Positions 2,637 to 33,358 of a stretch of DNA of 64,000 nt are shown here, piece by piece. Source of the DNA: Candidatus Zixiibacteriota bacterium. GTDB taxonomy: Bacteria; Zixibacteria; MSB-5A5; WJJR01. The DNA is taken from assembly GCA_036397555.1 (NCBI GenBank), contig DASWIS010000029.1, forward strand, positions 1 to 64,000. The letters run 5' to 3'. The notes beneath the pieces are model-generated. The model was not told the DNA's origin, searched no databases, and saw only the letters and a program-made list of their open reading frames with translations. Within the stretch, counting starts at the first letter, position 1; each line of letters begins with the position of its first letter. Made by a program: the position numbers and the translations under genes.

Positions 2637-4397
2637 ATGAAGACCACCCTACTTCGTCTCAGCGGCGCGCTCTGTCTTCTGATCCCCACCAGCGCCTGGG
2701 GGGCCAACCACGTGTTGGTCGAATCCAAGTCGGTGGCGCTGGGCGCCGCCGGGGTCACGATCGGCGTTTATGTGGAAAACGATGTGCAGCTCAACGCGAT
2801 CGTGATCCCACTGGAGTTCCGTGAGATCACGACGTCCGGCGGCTACATGACCAACACGCTCACGGTCGATGCCGCCAATCGTTTCACGACCTCGCTCATC
2901 GGCTTCGTCACCAAGAACTTCTATCCCGATGAGGACAACACCAACCCTCTGCTGTGTGGTGGGTCGGGGTACATGTTCTTCAGCGCCGTCGACTTCATCA
3001 GTCCCGACGCCTTCATGTACAGCGCCGTTCAGGTCTCCGATCCGTGCCTGCCGGTCGGCAACGACGGCGTTCCGCCCGGAGGGACGCCATCGCTCATCAT
3101 CACCTTCGATGTCACCAATGTCGACGGCCTCTTCGAGATCGACTCGACCTGCACGACCCCGGGCAATCACCTTGTGTATTCGCAGTGCGGCCCCGGGACG
3201 CCGGTCGTGCCCACCTTCACGCGCGGACTGGTCACGATCGGCAACCCAGTATTCCCGCCAGAGGTGTCCGACATTCCCGACCAGACAATCGACGAGGGGA
3301 GCACCTTCGCGCAGATCAATCTGAACGACTATGTGGTCGATCCCGACAACACCGATGCCGAGATGACCTGGACAGCGACCGGCCAATCGCAACTCGGTGT
3401 GGTGATTAGTCCCGGCAAGATCGCCACCATCCTCATCCCCAACCCCGACTGGTTCGGCAGCGAAACGATCACATTTCGCGCGACCGATCTCGACTTGCAG
3501 TTCGATGAAGACGCGGCGACCTTCACGGTCAACCCGGTCAACGACCCGCCGGTCTGGGGCCCCATCTCGAATAAGTTTGTCGAAGCCGGCAAGACCCTCG
3601 CGTTTGCCGTCGGCGCGACCGACATCGACGACGATTCTCTCGACATCACGATGGAGGGAGCTCCGGCCGCCGCAACCCTGGCGGACAACGGCGTGGGGCT
3701 GGCATTGTTCAACTGGCTCACGACGTGCGCCGATGAGGGCGTCCACATGGCGACCTTCATCGTCTCCGACGGTGATTTGGCCGACACTGCGACCATCACC
3801 ATTACGGTCACGCCCAACCCCGACACTCTGGTCGCCAACCCCGGTTCTCTCGATTTTGTGATCGAGTACGGAACCGATCCCGCCGCCAAGCTCGTTAACG
3901 TGACGGATCCGGGATGCGGCGAAATCCCATGGGAAGTCGAGGTGAACCAACCGTGGGTCCTCTTGTCCATCGATACGGGATTCACACCGGGCAGCTTCAC
4001 GGTCGACATCGACACGGCGGGGCTGTACCCCAACGAGTACAACGCGATCATCACGCTGCGCGAGCGCACGGTCGAACCGGACCCCATAGAAATTACCATC
4101 CCCGTCCATGTCTCCGTCGAGTCGGACGTCTGTCTGTGTCCCTGCCAGGGCGATTGGGATTGTGACGACATCATCGACGTGTTCGATGTCATCCATTGCG
4201 TCGATGTCGCCTTCCGCAACTACCCTGAGCTGGGATTCTCGTCGTGTCCGTTCTCGGTGCTGGATGCCAATTGCGACTGCGCCATCGACGTGTTCGACGT
4301 TGTCGTGCTGGTCGATCACGCTTTCCGTGCGGATTATTCGCCGATTTGCGGATTCGATGACCCGTGCGAGGCGCCCGATTGTAGTCCGTCGCATTAG
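2637..4397 (+). CDS. Secreted protein with Ig/cadherin-like repeats and a C-terminal dockerin-like module
   Basis: The protein has 586 residues and a Sec signal peptide ending TSAWGA. After an N-terminal beta region come Ig/cadherin-like repeats (VSDIPDQTIDEGSTF, then NPVNDPPVWGPISNKFVEAG) that resemble bacterial surface adhesins. A BACON-like segment (LDFVIEYGTDPAAKLVNV...WEVEVNQPWVLLSID) follows. The last ~85 residues hold two dockerin-like calcium loops, GDWDCDDIIDVFDV and DANCDCAIDVFDVV, each followed by VDxAFR and flanked by cysteines. Two other secreted proteins in this window share that tail. It is probably exported and surface-attached or extracellular. The ligand is unknown. A strong terminator follows the stop. 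Confidence 0.75.
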   Translation: MKTTLLRLSGALCLLIPTSAWGANHVLVESKSVALGAAGVTIGVYVENDVQLNAIVIPLEFREITTSGGYMTNTLTVDAANRFTTSLIGFVTKNFYPDEDNTNPLLCGGSGYMFFSAVDFISPDAFMYSAVQVSDPCLPVGNDGVPPGGTPSLIITFDVTNVDGLFEIDSTCTTPGNHLVYSQCGPGTPVVPTFTRGLVTIGNPVFPPEVSDIPDQTIDEGSTFAQINLNDYVVDPDNTDAEMTWTATGQSQLGVVISPGKIATILIPNPDWFGSETITFRATDLDLQFDEDAATFTVNPVNDPPVWGPISNKFVEAGKTLAFAVGATDIDDDSLDITMEGAPAAATLADNGVGLALFNWLTTCADEGVHMATFIVSDGDLADTATITITVTPNPDTLVANPGSLDFVIEYGTDPAAKLVNVTDPGCGEIPWEVEVNQPWVLLSIDTGFTPGSFTVDIDTAGLYPNEYNAIITLRERTVEPDPIEITIPVHVSVESDVCLCPCQGDWDCDDIIDVFDVIHCVDVAFRNYPELGFSSCPFSVLDANCDCAIDVFDVVVLVDHAFRADYSPICGFDDPCEAPDCSPSH

Positions 4398-4551: not shown

Positions 4552-5343
4552 ATGACAATGTCCCCTCCCGATCATCCCGTCCCGTTTGATTTCGGTGGAT
4601 TTGAATCGGTTCAAAATCACGCACATCGTGTCCTGATGCTGGACTACGACGGCACGCTCGCGCCCTTTCGCGCCGAACGCATGGCCGCGGTTCCGTATGA
4701 GGGTGTGCGGGAGCGACTGGACGCGATATCCACACGACCCGAAAGCCGGCTCGTCATCGTCTCGGGCCGGCCGGTGACCGAGGTGGTCGCGCTGCTGGAT
4801 GTCCGATTTCCGATTGAGATCTGGGGCGCTCATGGTTGGCAACGTCAACATGCGGATGGAAAAATCGAGGAGTGGTCACCGCCCGGCAGCGTGCGAGACG
4901 TGCTGCAGCGCGCGCTGGCGTCCGTCCCGTCTCGGATCCCCAGGGACGCGCTGGAGTCGAAGACCGCGTCGGTGGCGCTGCACACCCGTCGCTTGCCGCC
5001 TGCGGAAGGCCAACGCTGCATCGAGGTCCTGTACCCGATCTGGGAGCGACTCGTTGACGGAACCCCGCTGCAATTGCGACGCTTCGACGGCGGTATCGAA
5101 GTCAGGTCGATGGCCCGATCCAAGGGCGATGCGGTATCAACGTTGAAGGCCGAGTGCCGGCCCGATGCGTTTTTCGCTTATCTCGGAGACGATGAGACCG
5201 ACGAAGATGCATTTGCCCGACTCAGCACGACCGATTGGGCGATTCTGGTACGCCCGGAAGTTCGTCCCAGTCGGGCGCGATACTGGCTGAGGCCGCCGGG
5301 GGAGCTTTTGGATTTTCTGGCTGGGTGGACGCGGGACCGTTGA
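4552..5343 (+). CDS. otsB: Trehalose-6-phosphate phosphatase
   Basis: The 263-residue HAD-superfamily enzyme removes phosphate from trehalose 6-phosphate. Motif I is LMLDYDGTLAPF, with the nucleophile and acid/base aspartates. Motif II is VIVSGRPVTEV. The C-terminal acidic motif is YLGDDETDEDAF. The length is normal for OtsB. The ATG at 4552 is followed by a second in-frame ATG at 4558, and either could be used. A TTGGCC/TATCTT pair (4514-4541) is a weak promoter candidate. otsA follows 92 bases downstream, completing the two-step pathway from UDP-glucose and glucose 6-phosphate to trehalose. Confidence 0.92.
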   Translation: MTMSPPDHPVPFDFGGFESVQNHAHRVLMLDYDGTLAPFRAERMAAVPYEGVRERLDAISTRPESRLVIVSGRPVTEVVALLDVRFPIEIWGAHGWQRQHADGKIEEWSPPGSVRDVLQRALASVPSRIPRDALESKTASVALHTRRLPPAEGQRCIEVLYPIWERLVDGTPLQLRRFDGGIEVRSMARSKGDAVSTLKAECRPDAFFAYLGDDETDEDAFARLSTTDWAILVRPEVRPSRARYWLRPPGELLDFLAGWTRDR

Positions 5344-5435
5344 AATGATAGATTGATCGGATCAGCGGTAGACACGCCGGCCACCATCAGTGTGTGGTCG
5401 GCCGCATCGTCGAACCGTTCGTTCGGATCGTCGAT

Positions 5436-6911
5436 ATGACGAATCAAAAGTCAGCGCGACTGTTTGTTGTCTCCAACCGGCTGCCGGTCGCTGTCATCTC
5501 CGAAGGCGGCCGATGGACACTGGGTCCCGTAGCCGGCGGGCTGGTCACCGCGATGGCTCCGATCATGGAGCGCAATCACGGGGTCTGGATCGGCTGGCCC
5601 GGCTGCGGCCCGGAAGTTCCCTTTGGTCCGCTCCTCGAACGGTTTAATCAGGAACACCGCTATCAGCTTGTCCCGATACCGTTGAGCAAACACGAGGAGG
5701 AAGGGTACTATCGCGGCTTCGCCAACGAGGCGATTTGGCCGTTATTCCATGATTTGCTGGGGCATTGCCGCTTTGAAGCCGACACTTGGGCGGCGTATGT
5801 CGATGTCAACAAACGGTTTGCCGAGGTGATCGCCTCCGACCTCGACCGGCAATCACTCGTTTGGGTGCATGACTATCAACTGCTGCTGGTTGGCGCCGAT
5901 CTGCGCGCAGCGGGCGTCAGACGGCCGATCTCATTCTTCCTGCACATCCCCTTTCCTTCGCTGGACCTGTTTCGACGCATGCCGTGGAAACACCTGATCA
6001 TACGCGCGCTGCTGGCTTACGATCAGATCGGCTTTCAGACAATCCGTGACCGCCAAAACTTCCTGCAATGTGTGCGCGGACTGGTCCCCGAAACGTCGGT
6101 CAGCATGGGGCGGCGCGGGGGCGAGCTGGAATTCGAGGGACGCACGATCAAGGTCGGCTCCTTTCCGATCAGCATCGACTTCGACGAATTCGATGAGGGG
6201 GCGCGTCGCATGGAGGTCGCCGAGGCCTCGTGGTATTTGCGTGAACGCTACCGCGTCGGAAAACTGATTCTCGGCATTGATCGTCTGGACTACACCAAGG
6301 GCATACCCGAGACGTTTCTCTCCTTCGAGCGCGCGCTGGAGAAGTATCCCCAGATGCAGGGGAGCGTCTCGCTGATTCAGATCGTAGTTCCCAGCCGGAC
6401 CCATGTCCCCGACTATCGCGATCTCAAGTCGCTGCTGGACCAACTCTCAGGCCGGATCAACTCGCGGTTCTCGCGGCACGGATGGGTGCCCATACATTAC
6501 TTGTATCGCGCCCTGGATCGGACCGAGCTGTTGGCGCACTACCGCGCGAGCGACATCGCGCTGGTGACGCCGTTGCGCGACGGCATGAACCTCGTCGCCA
6601 AGGAGTACTGCGTCAGTTCCGTCGAAGAACGCGGCGTGCTGATCCTCAGCGAGTTCGCCGGAGCGGCCGAACAACTGGGGCGCGGCGCGCTGTGCGTCAA
6701 CCCGTACGACCGCGAGGGATGCGCGGATGCAATCCACCAGGCCTACTCCATGAATGAACGGGAGCAACAGTCGCGGATGAAGCTTCTGAGATCGCAAATT
6801 CGACGCAACGACGTCCATCGTTGGTTGCAGACAGTTCTGGCCATGCCGCAGGGCGGACGTCTTGAGGGCTTGCCGGAAGCCACGGCGGAGCCCGCCGACA
6901 CGCGCGCCTGA
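5436..6911 (+). CDS. otsA: Trehalose-6-phosphate synthase (GT20)
   Basis: The 491-residue GT-B enzyme makes trehalose 6-phosphate from UDP-glucose and glucose 6-phosphate. The expected family motifs are all present: [32 protein letters not shown] (sugar-phosphate site), [19 protein letters not shown] with the conserved His, [13 protein letters not shown] (nucleotide-sugar binding Arg and Lys) and [11 protein letters not shown] chose the ATG at 5436 because the family motif begins about ten residues later; an upstream GTG at 5394 would add 14 residues. With otsB it supplies a compatible solute for osmotic or desiccation stress. Confidence 0.93.
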
Positions 6912-23000: not shown

Positions 23001-24536
23001 TCACGCGCACGGATCGCAGTAGACGACAGCCGCGTCGCCGTTGCGAAACGCGACATCGACGAATGCCACCACGTCGAAGACATTGGTGACGCCGTCGCAG
23101 GTGACATCGGTCGTCGTGCGCGGACACAGGACATTGGGGTCGGGAATGTCGTCGCCGTTGCGGAAGGCGATATCGACCGCCGCGACCACGTCGAAGACAT
23201 TCACGACGCCGTTGCAGACCGGATCGCCGAAGCAGTCGCATGCGCACAGCCCTTCGCACTCGTCGGGAATCTGATTGGCATTGACGTCGGTGGAAAATCC
23301 GAAGGCGATGTCGCAGCGGTCGGAACGGTTGTTGGTGTTGCAATCATCGAGCGTGTCGGAGACGATCTTGTAAATCTCGCCGTCGTCGTAATCGACGATG
23401 TACAACTCGCCGAACGCGTCCTCCCCGAACGAGGAGACCTGATCGATGGCGTCGGCCCCCGGCGGATCGAGATCCGCCGTGCGTTCGGTGGAGTCGCTCT
23501 TGACCGCCCCGTCGTAGCGGAAGCTCCAGATGTTGCCGAACCCGTAATCGGCGAAAATATAGGCGCCGTCAAGCCAGGGAATCGCGCAGCCGCGGTACAC
23601 ATACCCGCCGGTGACCGAGTAACCCAGCGAGCGATCATACTCGCTGATCGGCAGGACGCGCCCCGGGATCGGGCAGGGCCCGCCGCACCCGGAGAGCGAT
23701 GGCAGGCAGTGCGAGCCCTCCATGCAGCGCCAGCCGTAGTTTTCGCCGCCGGTGCTGGCGGCGGGCTGATAATCGATTTCCTCCGTCGTATCCTGACCGA
23801 CGTCGCCGATGTACAGGTCGCCGGTCGCGCGGTCGAAGCTCCAGCGCCAGGGGTTGCGCAGTCCGAATGCCCAAATCTGCGGCAGCGTATCGAGTGCACC
23901 GACGAAGGGATTGTCGGCGGGCACGAAGGGCGCGGCGATGTCGATATCGAAGCGCAGCATCTTGCCCAGCAGCGACGATGGGTCCTGCGCGTTCTCATTC
24001 GGATCGTACCCCGAGCCGCCGTCGCCCATGCCGACATACAACATTCCATCGGGACCGAACTGCAGGCAGCCGCCGTTGTGATTGGGAAAGTCCTGCGCGA
24101 TCTCGATGATTTTCAGGATGCTGTCGGCGTGGGTGCAGGCGGTGTCGGGATCGGTCTCCGACGCCTTGTATCGCTCGATCCATGTCGCGCCGGTCGTGAC
24201 GCGGGTGTAGTTGACGAAGAAATACCCGTTGGTCTCATAATCGGGGTGAAACGCCAGCCCCAACAGCCCGCGCTCGCCGCAACAGGATATCTTGCTGGTG
24301 ATATTCAGGAACGGTTTGGCGAGCGGGACACCATTCTTGATGATCTTGATCGTCCCGTTCTGTTCGATGTAAAACAGGCGTTCGAAATCGCCCGGGGGAG
24401 AGGTGATGTAGATCGGGCGGATCAGCCCGTCGATGACCTGAACCGTATTCAGCCCGGCCATGGCATCCGTCGCGCCGATGGTGAGCATGAATGCCGCAAC
24501 CGATACCACAACAGTTCTGATTGGCAATGATCGCAT
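23001..24536 (-). CDS. Secreted PQQ-type sugar (glucose/sorbosone) dehydrogenase with a dockerin-like tail
   Basis: The 511-residue protein has a signal peptide (VVVSVAAFMLTIGATDAMA) and a six-bladed GSDH/sorbosone-dehydrogenase propeller. Family motifs include GERGLLGLAFHPDYETNGYFF, FPNHNGGCLQFGPDGMLYVGMGDGG, LRNPWRWSFDRATGDLYIGDVGQ and GENYGWRCMEG. Members oxidise sugars in the periplasm with PQQ; the cofactor is assumed here. The last ~80 residues carry two dockerin-like loops (GDPVCNGVVNVFDVV and DVTCDGVTNVFDVV) followed by VDxAFRNGD, matching two other secreted proteins in the window. GGAGGG lies 4 bases before ATG 24536, so the TTG at 24548 is rejected. Confidence 0.85.
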   Translation of the reverse strand: MRSLPIRTVVVSVAAFMLTIGATDAMAGLNTVQVIDGLIRPIYITSPPGDFERLFYIEQNGTIKIIKNGVPLAKPFLNITSKISCCGERGLLGLAFHPDYETNGYFFVNYTRVTTGATWIERYKASETDPDTACTHADSILKIIEIAQDFPNHNGGCLQFGPDGMLYVGMGDGGSGYDPNENAQDPSSLLGKMLRFDIDIAAPFVPADNPFVGALDTLPQIWAFGLRNPWRWSFDRATGDLYIGDVGQDTTEEIDYQPAASTGGENYGWRCMEGSHCLPSLSGCGGPCPIPGRVLPISEYDRSLGYSVTGGYVYRGCAIPWLDGAYIFADYGFGNIWSFRYDGAVKSDSTERTADLDPPGADAIDQVSSFGEDAFGELYIVDYDDGEIYKIVSDTLDDCNTNNRSDRCDIAFGFSTDVNANQIPDECEGLCACDCFGDPVCNGVVNVFDVVAAVDIAFRNGDDIPDPNVLCPRTTTDVTCDGVTNVFDVVAFVDVAFRNGDAAVVYCDPCA

Positions 24537-24653
24537 GCGACCCTCCAAACCGGCAGGTAGTTTACTTCGTGGTCGGGGCTGACCGAGCCCCGCATATCCC
24601 TAATGTCGGCTTATCCGAGACCGAGTCAAGGATTCATACGGCGCGCGTCGGTG

Positions 24654-26756: not shown

Positions 26757-26784
26757 TTGACAATTGCGTCATGCGGGGTATACT
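26757..26784 (+). promoter_or_regulatory. Strong sigma-70-type promoter of the subtilase gene
   Basis: TTGACA (26757-26762) and TATACT (26779-26784) are spaced by 16 bases. The match is near consensus and leaves a leader of about 90 bases before the ATG at 26881. It is one of the clearest promoters in the window. Confidence 0.7.
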
Positions 26785-26880
26785 GAACTGCGTTGTGGCG
26801 CATCACACGCGATCCCTCGCGTTGTTGCCCAGTCTACGTCGCAGTTGTTTCTGAATCCAGACGAAAGGATCGCCGTCGTC

Positions 26881-29800
26881 ATGTCCCGGTACACAGGCGC
26901 ATTCGTCGTTGTCCTGCTCCTGACCATTCTGGTCTCCGCTGGGTCGGTCGCCGACACCGCCCGAGTCCGTCCGCTGCGGCTGACCGCCGGGACACGGCTC
27001 CCGGATCCCGCCGAGACCGAGCAGCACCTCGAACGGATTCAGGCCGCTGGAACAGATCGCGATGGCGCGATCATCCAGTTCGAACAGATACCCACGGCAA
27101 CCGATCGTCTGTCGTTGGCAGCGCGCGGGATAACGCTTCACCGGTACATACCGGAAAACGCCTACATCGCGACGCTGCCGGCTGATTTCCGCGCCGATGA
27201 AACCGGAAATTACGGAATCACATGGATCGGGGCGCTCCAGCCCCAGGAAAAGTTCCCCGAGGGGCTCCAAGTCGCAGGAACCCCGGAATGGTGTCTGGAT
27301 GAGTCCGGCCGCCCGCAATTTTCGATTTCTGTTTTTCCGCACATCGAACCGGAGGCGGCCGCCGTCTGGCTGGCCGCCGAGTATGGCGCGGTGACGTTGG
27401 GAGTCTCTCGTCTCGCCAACGCCGTCGCTGTCGCATTGCCGGCGGACAACTGGTTCGACATTGCCCATGACTCACGCGTGCTGACGGTCGAACCCTTCTG
27501 GCCGCGACGGGAGACAAACAACTCATGCCGTACCAACAGCCGCGCCGAAGAGGCGCAGACCGCGCCGTACAACCTCGACGGCTCCGGGATCATGGTCGGC
27601 GAATGGGACGGCGGCCGCGCCGACATTAACCACAGCGATTTCGGCGGACGGGTCGTCTCCGGTGACGCCGCTTCCTTTATGACGCATGCCACTCATGTCG
27701 CCGGTACGATCCTGGGCTCCGGCTCCGAGTCGGGCGGCACCTATCGCGGGATGGCGCCGGCCGCGGGGCTGGTCACTTATCTGTGGTGGAACTTCGCCTT
27801 CGAAATGGAGAATGAAACCCAAAGCGCGATCAACACGCACGACATCTGGGCGTCGAACAACTCCTGGGGGGTCGGTTACTCGCCGCCCACCGTATCCAAC
27901 TGCAACGCCTATCTGGGGAACTACTTCTCCGAATGCGGCGCGATCGATGACGTCGTGCGCGGTGACTTGGGCAAGCCGGTCATCAATGTGTGGTCGGCCG
28001 GCAACGAGCGGCTGAACAGCCCCGATTACTGCGGCTCGGTGGGTTTTACGTGGGGCACGATCATCCCCTATGGAACCTCCAAGAATGCGCTCACCATCGG
28101 CGCGATCAATTCGAACAACTCGACCATGACTAGTTTCTCCAGTTGGGGGCCGACCGATGACGGGCGTCTCAAGCCGGAAATCGTTGCGCCCGGCTGCCAG
28201 ACCGGCGCCGACTTCGGCGTGACATCCACCAAGCTGACATCCGGCTACACGGTCTATTGCGGCACCTCGATGGCCGCGCCGACCACCACCGGATGCGTCG
28301 CCCTGTGGCTTGAACGATTCAACGATCTGCATCCCGGCGAGGTGCCGCTGGCATCGACCGTGCGCGCGATGTTCTGCGAAACGGCCTTCGATCTGGGCTC
28401 CACCGGCCCGGAGTACGATTTCGGCTACGGTCGTCTCGACATCGTCGCGGCGGTCGATCGGTTGGACGACGGAGCGTTCTTGGAGGCGAGTGTCGATCAC
28501 GGCGAGACGCCGCAATGGACTTTTGTCAGCGATGGTTCGGTCACGCCGATGTCCATCACGCTCGCCTGGGATGATCCCGGCGCGTTTGCGGGCGCCAATC
28601 CGACTCTGATCAATGATCTCGATTTGCGGCTGATTTCGCCCGGCGGCGCGACCACATATCTGCCGTGGGTTCTCAATCCGGCCAATCCCTCTGCCGACGC
28701 CACGACCGGCCTGGATCGGCGCAACAACATCGAGCAGGTGCGCATCACCGGACCGCTCCCGGCCGGCATCTGGACAATTGAAGTCGAGGGTTTCAATGTC
28801 CCGCAGGGACCGCAGGACTTTTCGCTCGTCTATTCGGCGGCCATCGATCTTTCATCGGGGCCGCAAGACTATGCCGTGACCGTCGCAGCCGACAACGACA
28901 CAACGAGCATACCCGCCGATCTTCCGTTCGGCATCCTCGTCGCCAATAACGGCGCACAAAACGACACCTACGATGTGACCTTGAGCAGCTCTCACGGCTG
29001 GACGATCACGCCCAACCCGGTCACAATTTCCATCCTCAGCTTGGATGACTCGCTTTTGAGCTTCACGGTCGCGATTCCGGTAAGCGGGCCGTTTAACGTA
29101 AATGACACGATCACCGGCACCGCCGTCTCGCAGGCCGATCCCGCCGTCAATTCATCCGATCAAAAGATCGTCGCGGTCATCTCCGGGCGCGCGGTGGAAG
29201 CCGTTGCGTCCAACGACACGCTCGGTATAGCGGGCAAGACCATTGAGTCGGCGGCGACGGTCACCAACACGGGGTTCTTCGCCGACGACATCGACTGGTC
29301 GCTGACCGACCAGCAGGGCTGGAGCGTCAGTCCGCCGGGCGGCACATCATCGCTGGCCCCCGGCGAAGACGACACGCTGGGGCTGGAGTTTACCATCGAT
29401 CCGGGCGCATCAGCCGGTTCGACCAATTGGGTCAAAGTCAATGCGGTCTCCCAGGCCGACCCCGGCGCGGCAGCCGCCGATTCGCTGCGCGTGACCGTGC
29501 TCGATAATCCCCCGGTGCCGCTGCTCGTGGCTCCCGCCGATGGCGCACCGTTCAATAATGCGACTCCCACGCTCGAATGGGGGAAGGGCGCATACGTGCC
29601 ATATCCGCCTCCATACGATGTCTTTGCGTTTGCAGTCGAGATAGGCGACGATCCGGCGTTCACGGCGAATCTCGTTCATCTCGACGCGTCAGACGACAGC
29701 AGCGTGGCCTCGCCCGCGTTGGCCGACGGTGTCCACTATTGGCGTGTTCTTTCATACAACGTGTTCGGCGATTCGAGTGCCTACTCGGAGATACGCACTT

Positions 29801-30333
29801 TCGAAGTCGACACGCAGGCGCCCGATGTGCCGTCGTTGCTGTCACCCGCCGACTTCGCCTACGAAGCGGACATCACGCCCACGTTTGCGTGGAGCGCAGT
29901 CACCGCGAAGAGTCTGTCATCGCCGGTCGTGTATCGGTGGGAGATCAGCGCCGATTCGACATTTGCCTCGGATGTCGACTCGCTTTGGACCTCGGTCACG
30001 ACGTATACGCTGCCCGACAGCACGCCGCTGGAACAGTGCAGCACGGTCGTCTACTGGCGCGTGACCGCGCGCGACGATGCCGGAAACTGGTCGGCGCCGT
30101 CGCCGGCGCACTCGTATGCCGTATACATCCCCGGCGATATGAACTTCGATTGCGTCGGCGACGTGTTCGATGTCGTCCTGCTCATCGGCGTCGTCTTCCG
30201 CGCCGAACCGCTCCCCAATCCGCCAGGACGCGCCGAATGCAACTGCTCGCCGCCGCCGCCCGATGTCTTCGATGCCGTGGCCCTCGTCGATTACGTGTTC
30301 CGCGCCGGCCCGCCGCCCTGCACGCCGTTATAG
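26881..30333 (+). CDS. Secreted subtilisin-like serine protease (S8) with beta domains and a dockerin-like tail
   Basis: The 1,150-residue protein has a signal peptide (FVVVLLLTILVSAGSVADTA) and a long propeptide region (~30-220). An S8 catalytic domain follows with Asp243 in EWDGG, His272 in THVAGT and Ser463 in GTSMAAP. Next come a P-domain-like jelly roll (ITLAWDDPGAF...IWTIEVEGFNVPQGPQDFSLVY), two CARDB/NEW3-type Ig domains (~660-870) and a fibronectin-like region (~880-1075). The last ~65 residues hold GDMNFDCVGDVFDVVLL and a second loop PPPPDVFDAVALVDYVFRAG that has lost its first calcium positions. The ATG at 26881 immediately precedes the signal peptide. Confidence 0.88.
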   Translation: MSRYTGAFVVVLLLTILVSAGSVADTARVRPLRLTAGTRLPDPAETEQHLERIQAAGTDRDGAIIQFEQIPTATDRLSLAARGITLHRYIPENAYIATLPADFRADETGNYGITWIGALQPQEKFPEGLQVAGTPEWCLDESGRPQFSISVFPHIEPEAAAVWLAAEYGAVTLGVSRLANAVAVALPADNWFDIAHDSRVLTVEPFWPRRETNNSCRTNSRAEEAQTAPYNLDGSGIMVGEWDGGRADINHSDFGGRVVSGDAASFMTHATHVAGTILGSGSESGGTYRGMAPAAGLVTYLWWNFAFEMENETQSAINTHDIWASNNSWGVGYSPPTVSNCNAYLGNYFSECGAIDDVVRGDLGKPVINVWSAGNERLNSPDYCGSVGFTWGTIIPYGTSKNALTIGAINSNNSTMTSFSSWGPTDDGRLKPEIVAPGCQTGADFGVTSTKLTSGYTVYCGTSMAAPTTTGCVALWLERFNDLHPGEVPLASTVRAMFCETAFDLGSTGPEYDFGYGRLDIVAAVDRLDDGAFLEASVDHGETPQWTFVSDGSVTPMSITLAWDDPGAFAGANPTLINDLDLRLISPGGATTYLPWVLNPANPSADATTGLDRRNNIEQVRITGPLPAGIWTIEVEGFNVPQGPQDFSLVYSAAIDLSSGPQDYAVTVAADNDTTSIPADLPFGILVANNGAQNDTYDVTLSSSHGWTITPNPVTISILSLDDSLLSFTVAIPVSGPFNVNDTITGTAVSQADPAVNSSDQKIVAVISGRAVEAVASNDTLGIAGKTIESAATVTNTGFFADDIDWSLTDQQGWSVSPPGGTSSLAPGEDDTLGLEFTIDPGASAGSTNWVKVNAVSQADPGAAAADSLRVTVLDNPPVPLLVAPADGAPFNNATPTLEWGKGAYVPYPPPYDVFAFAVEIGDDPAFTANLVHLDASDDSSVASPALADGVHYWRVLSYNVFGDSSAYSEIRTFEVDTQAPDVPSLLSPADFAYEADITPTFAWSAVTAKSLSSPVVYRWEISADSTFASDVDSLWTSVTTYTLPDSTPLEQCSTVVYWRVTARDDAGNWSAPSPAHSYAVYIPGDMNFDCVGDVFDVVLLIGVVFRAEPLPNPPGRAECNCSPPPPDVFDAVALVDYVFRAGPPPCTPL

Positions 30334-30484: not shown

Positions 30485-33097
30485 CTACTTGATAATCACG
30501 ATCTTGCCGACCTGCGCGCCGAGGTGTGAGTCGACGCGGTAGATGTAGATGCCCGACTCGACCGCCTGCTGGTTGCGGGAAATCAGGTCCCACGAAATCT
30601 CCGAAGAGTAACTCGACAGGAACGGGTCGGGATGATTCAGTTCGCGCACGAGGTCGCCGTCGAGCGTGTAAATGCGCACAGTCGCCGAATCGGGCATGTT
30701 GATGAAGTGAATTCGGCGCAGCCGCTCATCGAAGCTGCCTTGCGCGAACCGACCCTCGAACCCTTCATCGAAATACGTGCTCAACTGGCCGCTGGCGCCG
30801 ATGATCGCGCTTTTGTACGGGTTCGGATAGACGCTGACGCGGACTGAATCTTTGCGGGCGCCTCCGACTTGCCAATAATCCTCGACCACGTCGGACGAGT
30901 AGATGGGAATGCCGTAGACACGGTTGGTGCCGGGGATCGTCTCCAGCGGATCCAGATCGTTGAACGGATCACCGTAATCGAACGCGGTGACCGAAACGAA
31001 ATACGTCTTGGACGCCAGCAGATTGTCCAGGACGAGCTTGTAGACCCCGTACGTGAGCGTATCGAGCCCGACGATCGTGTCGCGTGTGCCGACGCGCTGG
31101 ATCAGGTTGGGTTTTTCGACTCCGTTGGAGATGATCGTATTGCCTTGGTTGAAGTCCTGCCGCTCGAAGTATCCCTTCCGCTCGACCACCTGCCCCTGAT
31201 CGTTGAAATCGGAGTACGTGTACGCCGAATCGGGTGTCCCGTGATAGATGGGATCGAACACGGGATCATCGAAGATGTCCCGCCAGGTCTCGACCGTGAA
31301 CGGATGCGATGTGACCTCCCAGCGGTTCAATAAGGGGTCGAGCGTGAAGCGGCGAAAATCCTCGATGTCCCAACTGGCGACCATGGCATAATCGCCGGAG
31401 CTGGGGAAGTCATCGGGAGAATTGCGTTCGGCGACGTAGACGCGGTACCCTTCAAAATCGATGAGACGGATCAACGGGTCGAGGACCGTTTCGGAATTCG
31501 CGCCGTTCCAATTGATCTCCAGTTCGTTGGGCCGCGAGATTAACGAGAGGTTATTGCTCGCGGGACCGGTGGGCGGTTTCGGGCCGGTGAAGTCGGGACA
31601 CCCGTCGCCTGTGTAAAAGATGGTGTCGGGGCCGATGATCGGGTAGTGCCGGCCCGCATCTTCGTCACCATCGCTGTCCACGCCGTAATTGTCGAAGACG
31701 AACCCCGCCCACCACGCGTTCTTGGCCAGGTCGGAGAAATCCAGATTGTTGACGAACTGCGTCGGATCGACACAGTCGAACGCATTGTCGGGATAGCGAT
31801 GGATATCGTCGGAGCCCAGGAACGCAAAGGTGATGGCAAACTTCTCGCCGGGCCGCAACTCGTTGACCGGTCCGGCCGAAAGGAGCGCGCGCGTATCCAG
31901 CCCGTCGGCCAGATTGCAGGCGACCGCCTCCGTCAAGGGCGGCTTCCATCCCTGTGAACTGAAGTTGACCGCCGAGTACAACTGTCCGTAGTCCTGCTCG
32001 CCATTGGACATGAACCAGTACTTCTGCAAATCACGCGAGGGAGTGCCCTGCCCGCCATGGGTAAGCCGGCGCAGATCGGTCGCGAGACGGGGACCCCAGT
32101 CGAGAATGGCCGATGCATTCGATGTCCACCAATTGAAACTGACACCGGCACCCTCCGGCAGACGCAGAAAGCGCCAGCCAAACGCCCCCCGTGCCGACGC
32201 CCGCGGAAATTGTCCGCCGTCGGGGTCGCCGTCGTTGTCGCCCACCCACGCCACCAGCAGCGTATCGGTATAAGTCGGATCGATCGGATTGGGCCAATAG
32301 GGCAAAAATCCGGAGATGTCGTCGTTGAAACGATCCTGCGTGTTCCCGGTCGCGAACTGGTAGTACACGTCGCAATCGTTAAAGACTCCGGTGTAGATTT
32401 CTTTGATTATGTTGGTGCCGATGTTCTCGATTTCCAGATCGTAGATCACGAAGTCACGGGCGAAATTGTCCGATGACTGATGCGTGGCTTGCCGCACCAT
32501 CAGGCCCATGGGAGTGTGCTGCGTGAAATTCGTGCTGGTGAAAACCGTATCGACGTATTCGGTGTAATAAACCTGCTCCAGCGACTTGGCTGACCCGCCG
32601 CCGGCGCAACCGGCGGAGACATACCCGTCGGGCAGCCCCTCCCGGATCGGCTCGAATCCGTTAAACTCATCGCCGATGCCATCCCAGCCGTCGTAGGCGA
32701 CCGACACCAGCGTGTCGGTCCCGACAATGCCGCCGACCCACAAGCCGCCATTGTAGAGATAGTCGATGCGGGTGCCGCCGGGGTACTCCAGCGAGGGGCA
32801 CCAGTTGATGCGAAGTAACGTCTCGTCGATCGGGCAGGCATCGTCGCCGTGCGAGGTACCCCAGGAACCGTCATTGCCAAATGAGGTCCACAGCTCGCCG
32901 ATATAGTGCAGCCGTCGGTCGAATACCGGCGCGGCCTGATGAACCCAGGCCCCCGATCCCTTCGGCGGTTCCAGCGGAGGCGGGTTGTCTCTGGCCAGCG
33001 ATGTCATCGACAACGACACGCACGCCAACAGCAACAGGCCCACGACCCGGACCGACCCATGACCGGGGACACCAGTTAGAGTGTCACTCTGGCGCAA
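30485..33097 (-). CDS. Large secreted protein with a FlgD/T9SS-like C-terminal domain
   Basis: The ~870-residue protein has a signal peptide (VVGLLLLACVSLSMTSLA). Its body is rich in Asp, Gly and aromatic residues and belongs to no family I can name; it recalls long secreted proteins of FCB candidate phyla. The C-terminus (VSVYPNPYKS...FINMPDSATVRIYTLDGDLVRELNH...WDLISRNQQAVESGIYIYRV...GKIVIIK) is a FlgD-like Ig domain of the type used as a T9SS or surface-sorting tail. AAGGAG lies 8 bases before a TTG at 33097; the longest frame starts at an ATG at 33118 that lacks a ribosome binding site. Confidence 0.7.
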   Translation of the reverse strand: MRQSDTLTGVPGHGSVRVVGLLLLACVSLSMTSLARDNPPPLEPPKGSGAWVHQAAPVFDRRLHYIGELWTSFGNDGSWGTSHGDDACPIDETLLRINWCPSLEYPGGTRIDYLYNGGLWVGGIVGTDTLVSVAYDGWDGIGDEFNGFEPIREGLPDGYVSAGCAGGGSAKSLEQVYYTEYVDTVFTSTNFTQHTPMGLMVRQATHQSSDNFARDFVIYDLEIENIGTNIIKEIYTGVFNDCDVYYQFATGNTQDRFNDDISGFLPYWPNPIDPTYTDTLLVAWVGDNDGDPDGGQFPRASARGAFGWRFLRLPEGAGVSFNWWTSNASAILDWGPRLATDLRRLTHGGQGTPSRDLQKYWFMSNGEQDYGQLYSAVNFSSQGWKPPLTEAVACNLADGLDTRALLSAGPVNELRPGEKFAITFAFLGSDDIHRYPDNAFDCVDPTQFVNNLDFSDLAKNAWWAGFVFDNYGVDSDGDEDAGRHYPIIGPDTIFYTGDGCPDFTGPKPPTGPASNNLSLISRPNELEINWNGANSETVLDPLIRLIDFEGYRVYVAERNSPDDFPSSGDYAMVASWDIEDFRRFTLDPLLNRWEVTSHPFTVETWRDIFDDPVFDPIYHGTPDSAYTYSDFNDQGQVVERKGYFERQDFNQGNTIISNGVEKPNLIQRVGTRDTIVGLDTLTYGVYKLVLDNLLASKTYFVSVTAFDYGDPFNDLDPLETIPGTNRVYGIPIYSSDVVEDYWQVGGARKDSVRVSVYPNPYKSAIIGASGQLSTYFDEGFEGRFAQGSFDERLRRIHFINMPDSATVRIYTLDGDLVRELNHPDPFLSSYSSEISWDLISRNQQAVESGIYIYRVDSHLGAQVGKIVIIK

Positions 33098-33358
33098 TCT
33101 ATCATCTCCTTGCCACATATAGAATTACATCGCCACGCGCCCGCCAGGCGACATCGCCGGGCCGAACGTGCCAGTCGGCGCTCTCTCCGGCCGCTGTCAA
33201 GATCAGCAACACTGGGGTTCAAGTCAACGTCCTCGGATCAAACCTCATCGCTACTACCGGCCAACCCCGATGATATTCCAACCAATCAGCGGTACGCGGG
33301 CAGAAACCTCGTGTCGGTATCGAAAGGTCGGAGTCACAATGGAACCGGACCGGGAAAG
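33098..33358. other. Spacer between the large secreted protein and tRNA-Leu
   Basis: I see no gene or strong motif in this stretch. It must hold the promoter of the minus-strand secreted-protein gene, but no clear -35/-10 pair stands out. Confidence 0.4.

Follow-up and report, generated by a model that had tools for sequence, protein, structure and literature searches.

Genes and Features of the Locus

The window, that is the whole stretch of 64,000 nucleotides that was analysed from a Candidatus Zixiibacteriota genome, carries three genes whose products share a cysteine-bearing, dockerin-like tail. A sequence-only reading of this DNA had assigned the tail to an Ig-like protein, a sugar dehydrogenase and a subtilase, and all three carriers are present. 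They are listed here together with their parts and one neighbouring gene.

2637..4397, + strand: carrier 1, an ORF of 586 aa with a signal peptide, a VESK cohesin-like domain, Ig-like domains and a cysteine-stapled dockerin tail
2637..2702, + strand: predicted signal peptide of carrier 1, MKTTLLRLSGALCLLIPTSAWG, read by eye from the sequence
2703..3242, + strand: VESK domain, N-terminal in carrier 1, divergent and cohesin-like, a candidate docking partner
3267..3812, + strand: Big_9/cadherin-like Ig domains of carrier 1 (Pfam)
4128..4382, + strand: cysteine-stapled dockerin-like module of carrier 1 (two loop-helix repeats plus flanking cysteines)
4131..4145, + strand: pre-module cysteines CLCPC of carrier 1, with codons at 4131, 4137 and 4143
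4152..4187, + strand: loop 1 of the carrier 1 tail, DWDCDDIIDVFD, loop cysteine at 4161
4263..4298, + strand: loop 2 of the carrier 1 tail, DANCDCAIDVFD, loop cysteine at 4272
4347..4367, + strand: terminal cysteine pair CGFDDPC of carrier 1 (family consensus CDPC)
23001..24548, - strand: carrier 2, a GSDH-family (glucose/sorbosone dehydrogenase-like) protein
26764..30333, + strand: carrier 3, an S8 peptidase, likely start 26881
30485..33118, - strand: exported protein of 877 aa, convergent with carrier 3, with a weak T9SS sorting domain match (17.2 bits, under the cut-off of 27)

In the consensus of the tail family, CxCxC-x2-DPxCDGxxNVFDVVxxVDVAFR is joined by a CP-containing linker to DVxCDGxTNVFDVVxxVDVAFR, after which CDPC closes the sequence; in carrier 1 VDxAFR comes after each of the two loops. 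All eight cysteines are present in the tail of carrier 2 (23004-23249), whereas that of carrier 3 (30133-30330) is a cysteine-poor variant that has neither CxCxC nor the CP between the loops, nor the CxxC at its end. The conservation of flanking cysteines proposed earlier is therefore true for two of the three carriers. The loop cysteine, also proposed earlier, is found in the loops of carrier 1, but in the first loop of the subtilase it occupies position 6 instead of position 4.

Directly 3' of carrier 1, at 4557-6911, lie two ORFs that resemble, by eye only, a trehalose-phosphatase/trehalose-phosphate synthase pair.

The Tail as a Divergent Dockerin

A profile of 14 tails, run against all PDB sequences, gave 13 matches at E<=10 and all 13 were dockerins or dockerin-bearing chains; single matches are weak, with a best E value of 0.008. 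These matches place the tail, on sequence grounds, inside the dockerin superfamily, and by this computed homology it is a divergent type I-like dockerin. As in type I dockerins (PF00404; 5lxv_B, 2y3n_B, 1ohz_B), the module is borne by exported proteins and has a calcium-loop/helix unit twice in tandem, and helices follow both 12-residue loops in low-confidence models. A model of the tail alone reached a pLDDT of 47 and found no PDB match.

The differences from type I dockerins are nevertheless considerable. The conserved cysteines, up to eight in number, are spread over the repeats themselves, the linker and both flanks. Loop position 4 is also a cysteine in the solved dockerins 5lxv and 5n5p, and the eight-cysteine frame was seen nowhere outside this family in the searches made. 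The calcium positions had been considered largely kept, and positions 1, 5, 9 and 12 are indeed largely D or N in both repeats across the family, but in loop 1 the third position is degenerate and often offers no calcium ligand. Pfam Dockerin_1 gave no match at E<1 in the three window proteins and matched three of the 14 tails (best E 7.8e-4), and at its curated cut-off, a usual mark of a type I dockerin, it does not recognise the tail. This result and the extra cysteine frame rule out an ordinary Dockerin_1 domain. The supposed distinctness from cellulosome dockerins survives insofar as the tail does not collapse into Dockerin_1, but is weakened in that the tail profile finds dockerins in the PDB. 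Scans of the tails with Pfam and NCBIfam otherwise yielded nothing useful, and none of the tails matched the T9SS sorting domain (TIGR04183/PF18962) in them.

Carriers, Their Export and Their Cargo Domains

When the window tail was searched in its own genome (G000, 2.63 Mb), 75 places were found, 61 of them with E<=2.2e-8, and the repetition of the tail is therefore far beyond chance. About 65 exported proteins bear this one common cysteine-rich module, a candidate docking tail. Among the carriers, which were taken from targeted stretches of the genome, the module lies at most 40 residues from the C-terminus in 64, mostly within the last few residues. It also occurs at the mature N-terminus, straight after the signal peptide, in C8:640489 (an M43-like metallopeptidase) and C12:5628, and internally in C2:3848 and in L120, a four-copy protein of a related genome described below. 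On account of these N-terminal and internal copies we reject a pure C-terminal sorting signal.

A signal peptide was predicted by a home-made rule in 73 of 80 carrier or related ORFs, against about 10 of the 39 window genes scored with a similar rule. The ORFs that fail are mostly truncated frames or false negatives, and the rule missed the right start of carrier 1, whose signal peptide is plain by eye. The tail was expected to be absent from cytoplasmic proteins, and no clear cytoplasmic carrier was found among those extracted. Of the two roles suggested earlier, attachment or sorting of exported proteins, the first agrees with the frequency of signal peptides, while the second, taken as C-terminal sorting, does not accord with where some copies lie.

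In the 43 carriers that were scanned, the cargo domains comprise S8, M14, M43 and trypsin-like peptidases, lysyl oxidase and plastocyanin-like domains, as well as GSDH, Sortilin-like, FG-GAP, PKD and Ig-like domains. Carriers are mostly peptidases and repeat proteins, not cellulases. No glycoside hydrolase was detected in these 43, and a cargo of such enzymes with carbohydrate-binding modules is lacking from them; the tail system is, by content, no cellulosome.

Neighbouring carriers with similar tails occur in genome G000 at C28:12694-31474 (six or seven carriers) and C30:2404-8560 (four), and these runs are probably tandem duplications.

The VESK Domain as a Candidate Cohesin

The sequence-only reading had seen no cohesin. 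This no longer holds, given that the N-terminal domain of carrier 1 is cohesin-like by predicted fold and that five Pfam cohesins over cut-off lie elsewhere in the genome. The genome encodes about 20 copies of this N-terminal domain, VESK; it is about 180 aa long, with conserved cysteines of its own and the motifs SPDA/FEIDT. It differs in these respects from Cohesin (PF00963), and neither shallow nor deep VESK profiles gave a direct match to Pfam or PDB cohesins; a direct comparison of VESK and cohesin profiles was also negative.

The likeness emerges from predicted structure and from intermediate sequences. An AlphaFold2 model was made for L101, a 274-aa VESK-plus-tail protein of another Zixibacteria genome, from a six-sequence alignment. 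All five PDB matches obtained with this model in Foldseek at E<=0.001 are cohesin entries, at a model pLDDT of 53 and with poor superposition; 4ums is the best (E 2e-5, probability 1.00), and four single cohesin chains superposed on the VESK model with rmsd of 6.7-8.1. Canonical cohesins, which served as a positive control, match essentially only cohesins in the PDB. At the sequence level, a bridge family from the same class aligns in hhalign with VESK at 98.5% and with the domain of C8:719432 at 97.5%, and the latter aligns with canonical Zixibacteria cohesins at 82%; a bridge member, L200, scores 18.8-21.8 bits against Pfam Cohesin, under the cut-off of 24.1. From predicted fold and intermediates together, VESK is probably a divergent cohesin.

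A second, more canonical set, with cohesin then dockerin, is present in genome G000 (C25:5308-6735, C6:70-744, C2:40044-40730, C5:6840-7526 and the ORF at C25:10754). Two proteins of this set end in a T9SS domain, and the ends of contigs C2 and C5 carry near-identical copies.

VESK Architectures and the T9SS

The window's own genome encodes the translocon gene sprA (SprA) and about 27 T9SS sorting domains over cut-off. Its 16 VESK proteins comprise 11 with a dockerin module, four with a T9SS sorting domain and one with neither, and among VESK ORFs of eight relatives of the same order, complete or module-bearing, the corresponding numbers are 23, eight and three. The cysteine module and a T9SS domain were found together in no protein of the own genome or the order relatives; VESK proteins carry either the tail or the T9SS domain, the two alternating. 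VESK often lies directly N-terminal to the module, and some 350 bases separate a subtilase tail carrier (C8:22090) from a VESK-T9SS gene (C8:22682) on its downstream side.

Proteins of the own genome have at most two complete VESK copies. In genome G002 (C14:60500-66800), L120, of 981 aa, has three VESK domains that alternate with four cysteine dockerins, and its three domains would amount to the several cohesins of a scaffoldin only if VESK is a cohesin.

Three VESK-plus-tail proteins of genome G000 (C26:35745, C7:1241 and C8:107054) have a common variant tail, with KISQVVNQ in helix 1 and a changed second helix, which possibly confers a different binding specificity.

Distribution across the Phylum

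The scan for further carriers that had been proposed for this genome and its relatives was productive in both. At E<=1e-8 the strict tail is present in 12 of 133 phylum genomes, namely in every one of the nine order genomes searched and in three from another family of the class, and a contig search with five tails recovered two Zixibacteria loci only. The strong form of the tail is limited to essentially one order of Zixibacteria, and less cysteine-rich related dockerins are class-wide. VESK is strong in the same nine order genomes and weak or absent in the other class genomes searched, so that the peaks of VESK and of strong tails coincide in one order. Of 38 class genomes, 33 encode canonical cohesins, including G019, G031, G032 and G036, which have no tail match, and these cohesins therefore do not track the tail.

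Predicted Pairing of the Cysteines

Across 133 non-redundant tails, taken from the own genome and from relatives, 80 have the third cysteine of CxCxC (C3) together with the loop 1 cysteine, 50 have neither, and three are discordant (130/133 concordant, phi 0.95). For the own genome alone the figures are 36 present, 23 absent and none discordant. On a tree made without these two columns, each cysteine changes 15 times and 13 of the changes fall on the same branch, against 1.1 expected; any other cysteine pair has at most two branches in common. This joint gain and loss predicts that C3 and the loop 1 cysteine are bonded or have a common ligand, in a disulphide or a shared metal site.

A disulphide would be the preferred form of this contact. 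By analogy, CP may pair with the loop 2 cysteine, since a single-repeat tail, L102 4980-5153, has lost both together, while CxCxC, the terminal CxxC and the cysteine of loop 1 are retained. CxC and the terminal CxxC may form a further pair, acting as a clasp. Searches of the own genome for the oxidation protein families VKOR and Thioredoxin_4 (DsbA-like) found neither, which is odd for a genome with cysteine-rich exported proteins. This negative result would suit another reading of the cysteine chemistry, compatible with docking: a metal site made up of CxC and the terminal CxxC, in a module that serves as a structural cap holding both metal and calcium. Both motifs commonly supply ligands to metals. 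We nevertheless consider such a site unlikely: C3 and the loop 1 cysteine covary strictly with each other and without dependence on the remaining six, a pattern that, for these two residues, a pairwise bond explains better than a site with four ligands.

Proposed Mechanism and Alternatives

We propose, with a probability of roughly 0.6, that the cysteine-stapled dockerin attaches exported proteins to VESK cohesins, part of which the T9SS anchors on the surface. The tail would be a shared plug on Sec-exported proteins, stiffened by the covarying cysteines, and its most likely socket would be the VESK domain, the predicted divergent cohesin. VESK proteins that end in a T9SS sorting domain would act as surface anchors, and VESK-tail proteins such as that of the window as adaptors, bound to an anchor and in turn binding further carriers. 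The remaining carriers, including peptidases, dehydrogenase-like and repeat proteins, would then be cargo. Both the binding of VESK to the tail and the surface location of the cargo are inferred parts of this scheme.

The five canonical cohesins over cut-off in the genome could themselves be the real partners of the tail, in which case VESK would be an accompanying Ig-like stabiliser of the adjacent dockerin. X modules precede dockerins in cellulosomes, and the frequent position of VESK directly before the module recalls them. Such a stabiliser role is difficult to reconcile with the VESK domains that lack any module and are fused to a T9SS domain, nor does it explain why Foldseek picks cohesins for the VESK model, and canonical cohesins extend to genomes of the class without a tail match; we regard this arrangement as improbable. 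A still smaller likelihood attaches to the tail being a signal for outer-membrane export comparable to the T9SS C-terminal domain, rather than a docking plug. Its mostly exact C-terminal position, its restriction to secreted proteins and its never occurring with a T9SS domain in VESK proteins would all suit a sorting signal, but the tail is homologous to dockerins, not to T9SS domains, and copies stand at mature N-termini or inside proteins, up to four in one chain.

Within the preferred docking scheme, carriers without a T9SS signal might ride on VESK-T9SS proteins, dockerin and cohesin binding in the periplasm and the complex being exported or displayed together. This extension is a long shot; if true, tens of proteins would, through docking, need no T9SS signal of their own.

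Relation to Known Systems

The T9SS C-terminal sorting domain (TIGR04183/PF18962) resembles the tail in that many exported proteins of this genome share it at their C-termini, but the two are unrelated in sequence, they alternate in VESK proteins and the tail is not strictly C-terminal. To our knowledge ANME archaea have no T9SS. In these archaea, dockerin/cohesin sets have been described outside the context of cellulose degradation, some of their proteins combining a single dockerin with several cohesins (PMC9012536); these sets are archaeal, and the part of that paper available to us mentions no cysteine-rich module (PMC9012536).

The closest published system is a cellulosome-like set in the Cloacimonadota, in Ca. 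Stygibacter, with dockerin-tailed S8 and other enzymes and a cohesin scaffoldin whose conserved C-terminal domain serves for cell-surface attachment, a T9SS review being cited for it (PMC8542988). The domains of that set are canonical and include glycoside hydrolases, and cysteine stapling is unmentioned in the accessible part of the account (PMC8542988). Compared with Ca. Stygibacter as portrayed there, likewise a member of an uncultured phylum, the Zixibacteria genome has many more carriers and the divergent cohesin-like VESK domain. In the non-subscription literature searched, we found no publications on this module, on dockerins in Zixibacteria or on Zixibacteria and the T9SS.

Significance

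If the docking scheme is correct, a cohesin family missed by Pfam would be paired with a cysteine-stapled dockerin, and the pairing would be testable, the gene of carrier 1 encoding both the tail and its candidate partner. The tail would also offer a rigid dockerin for protein engineering. Cohesin-dockerin assembly would be extended to a peptidase-rich, T9SS-anchored exoproteome, and a whole order of an uncultured phylum would organise its exported proteins by an expanded plug-and-socket system.
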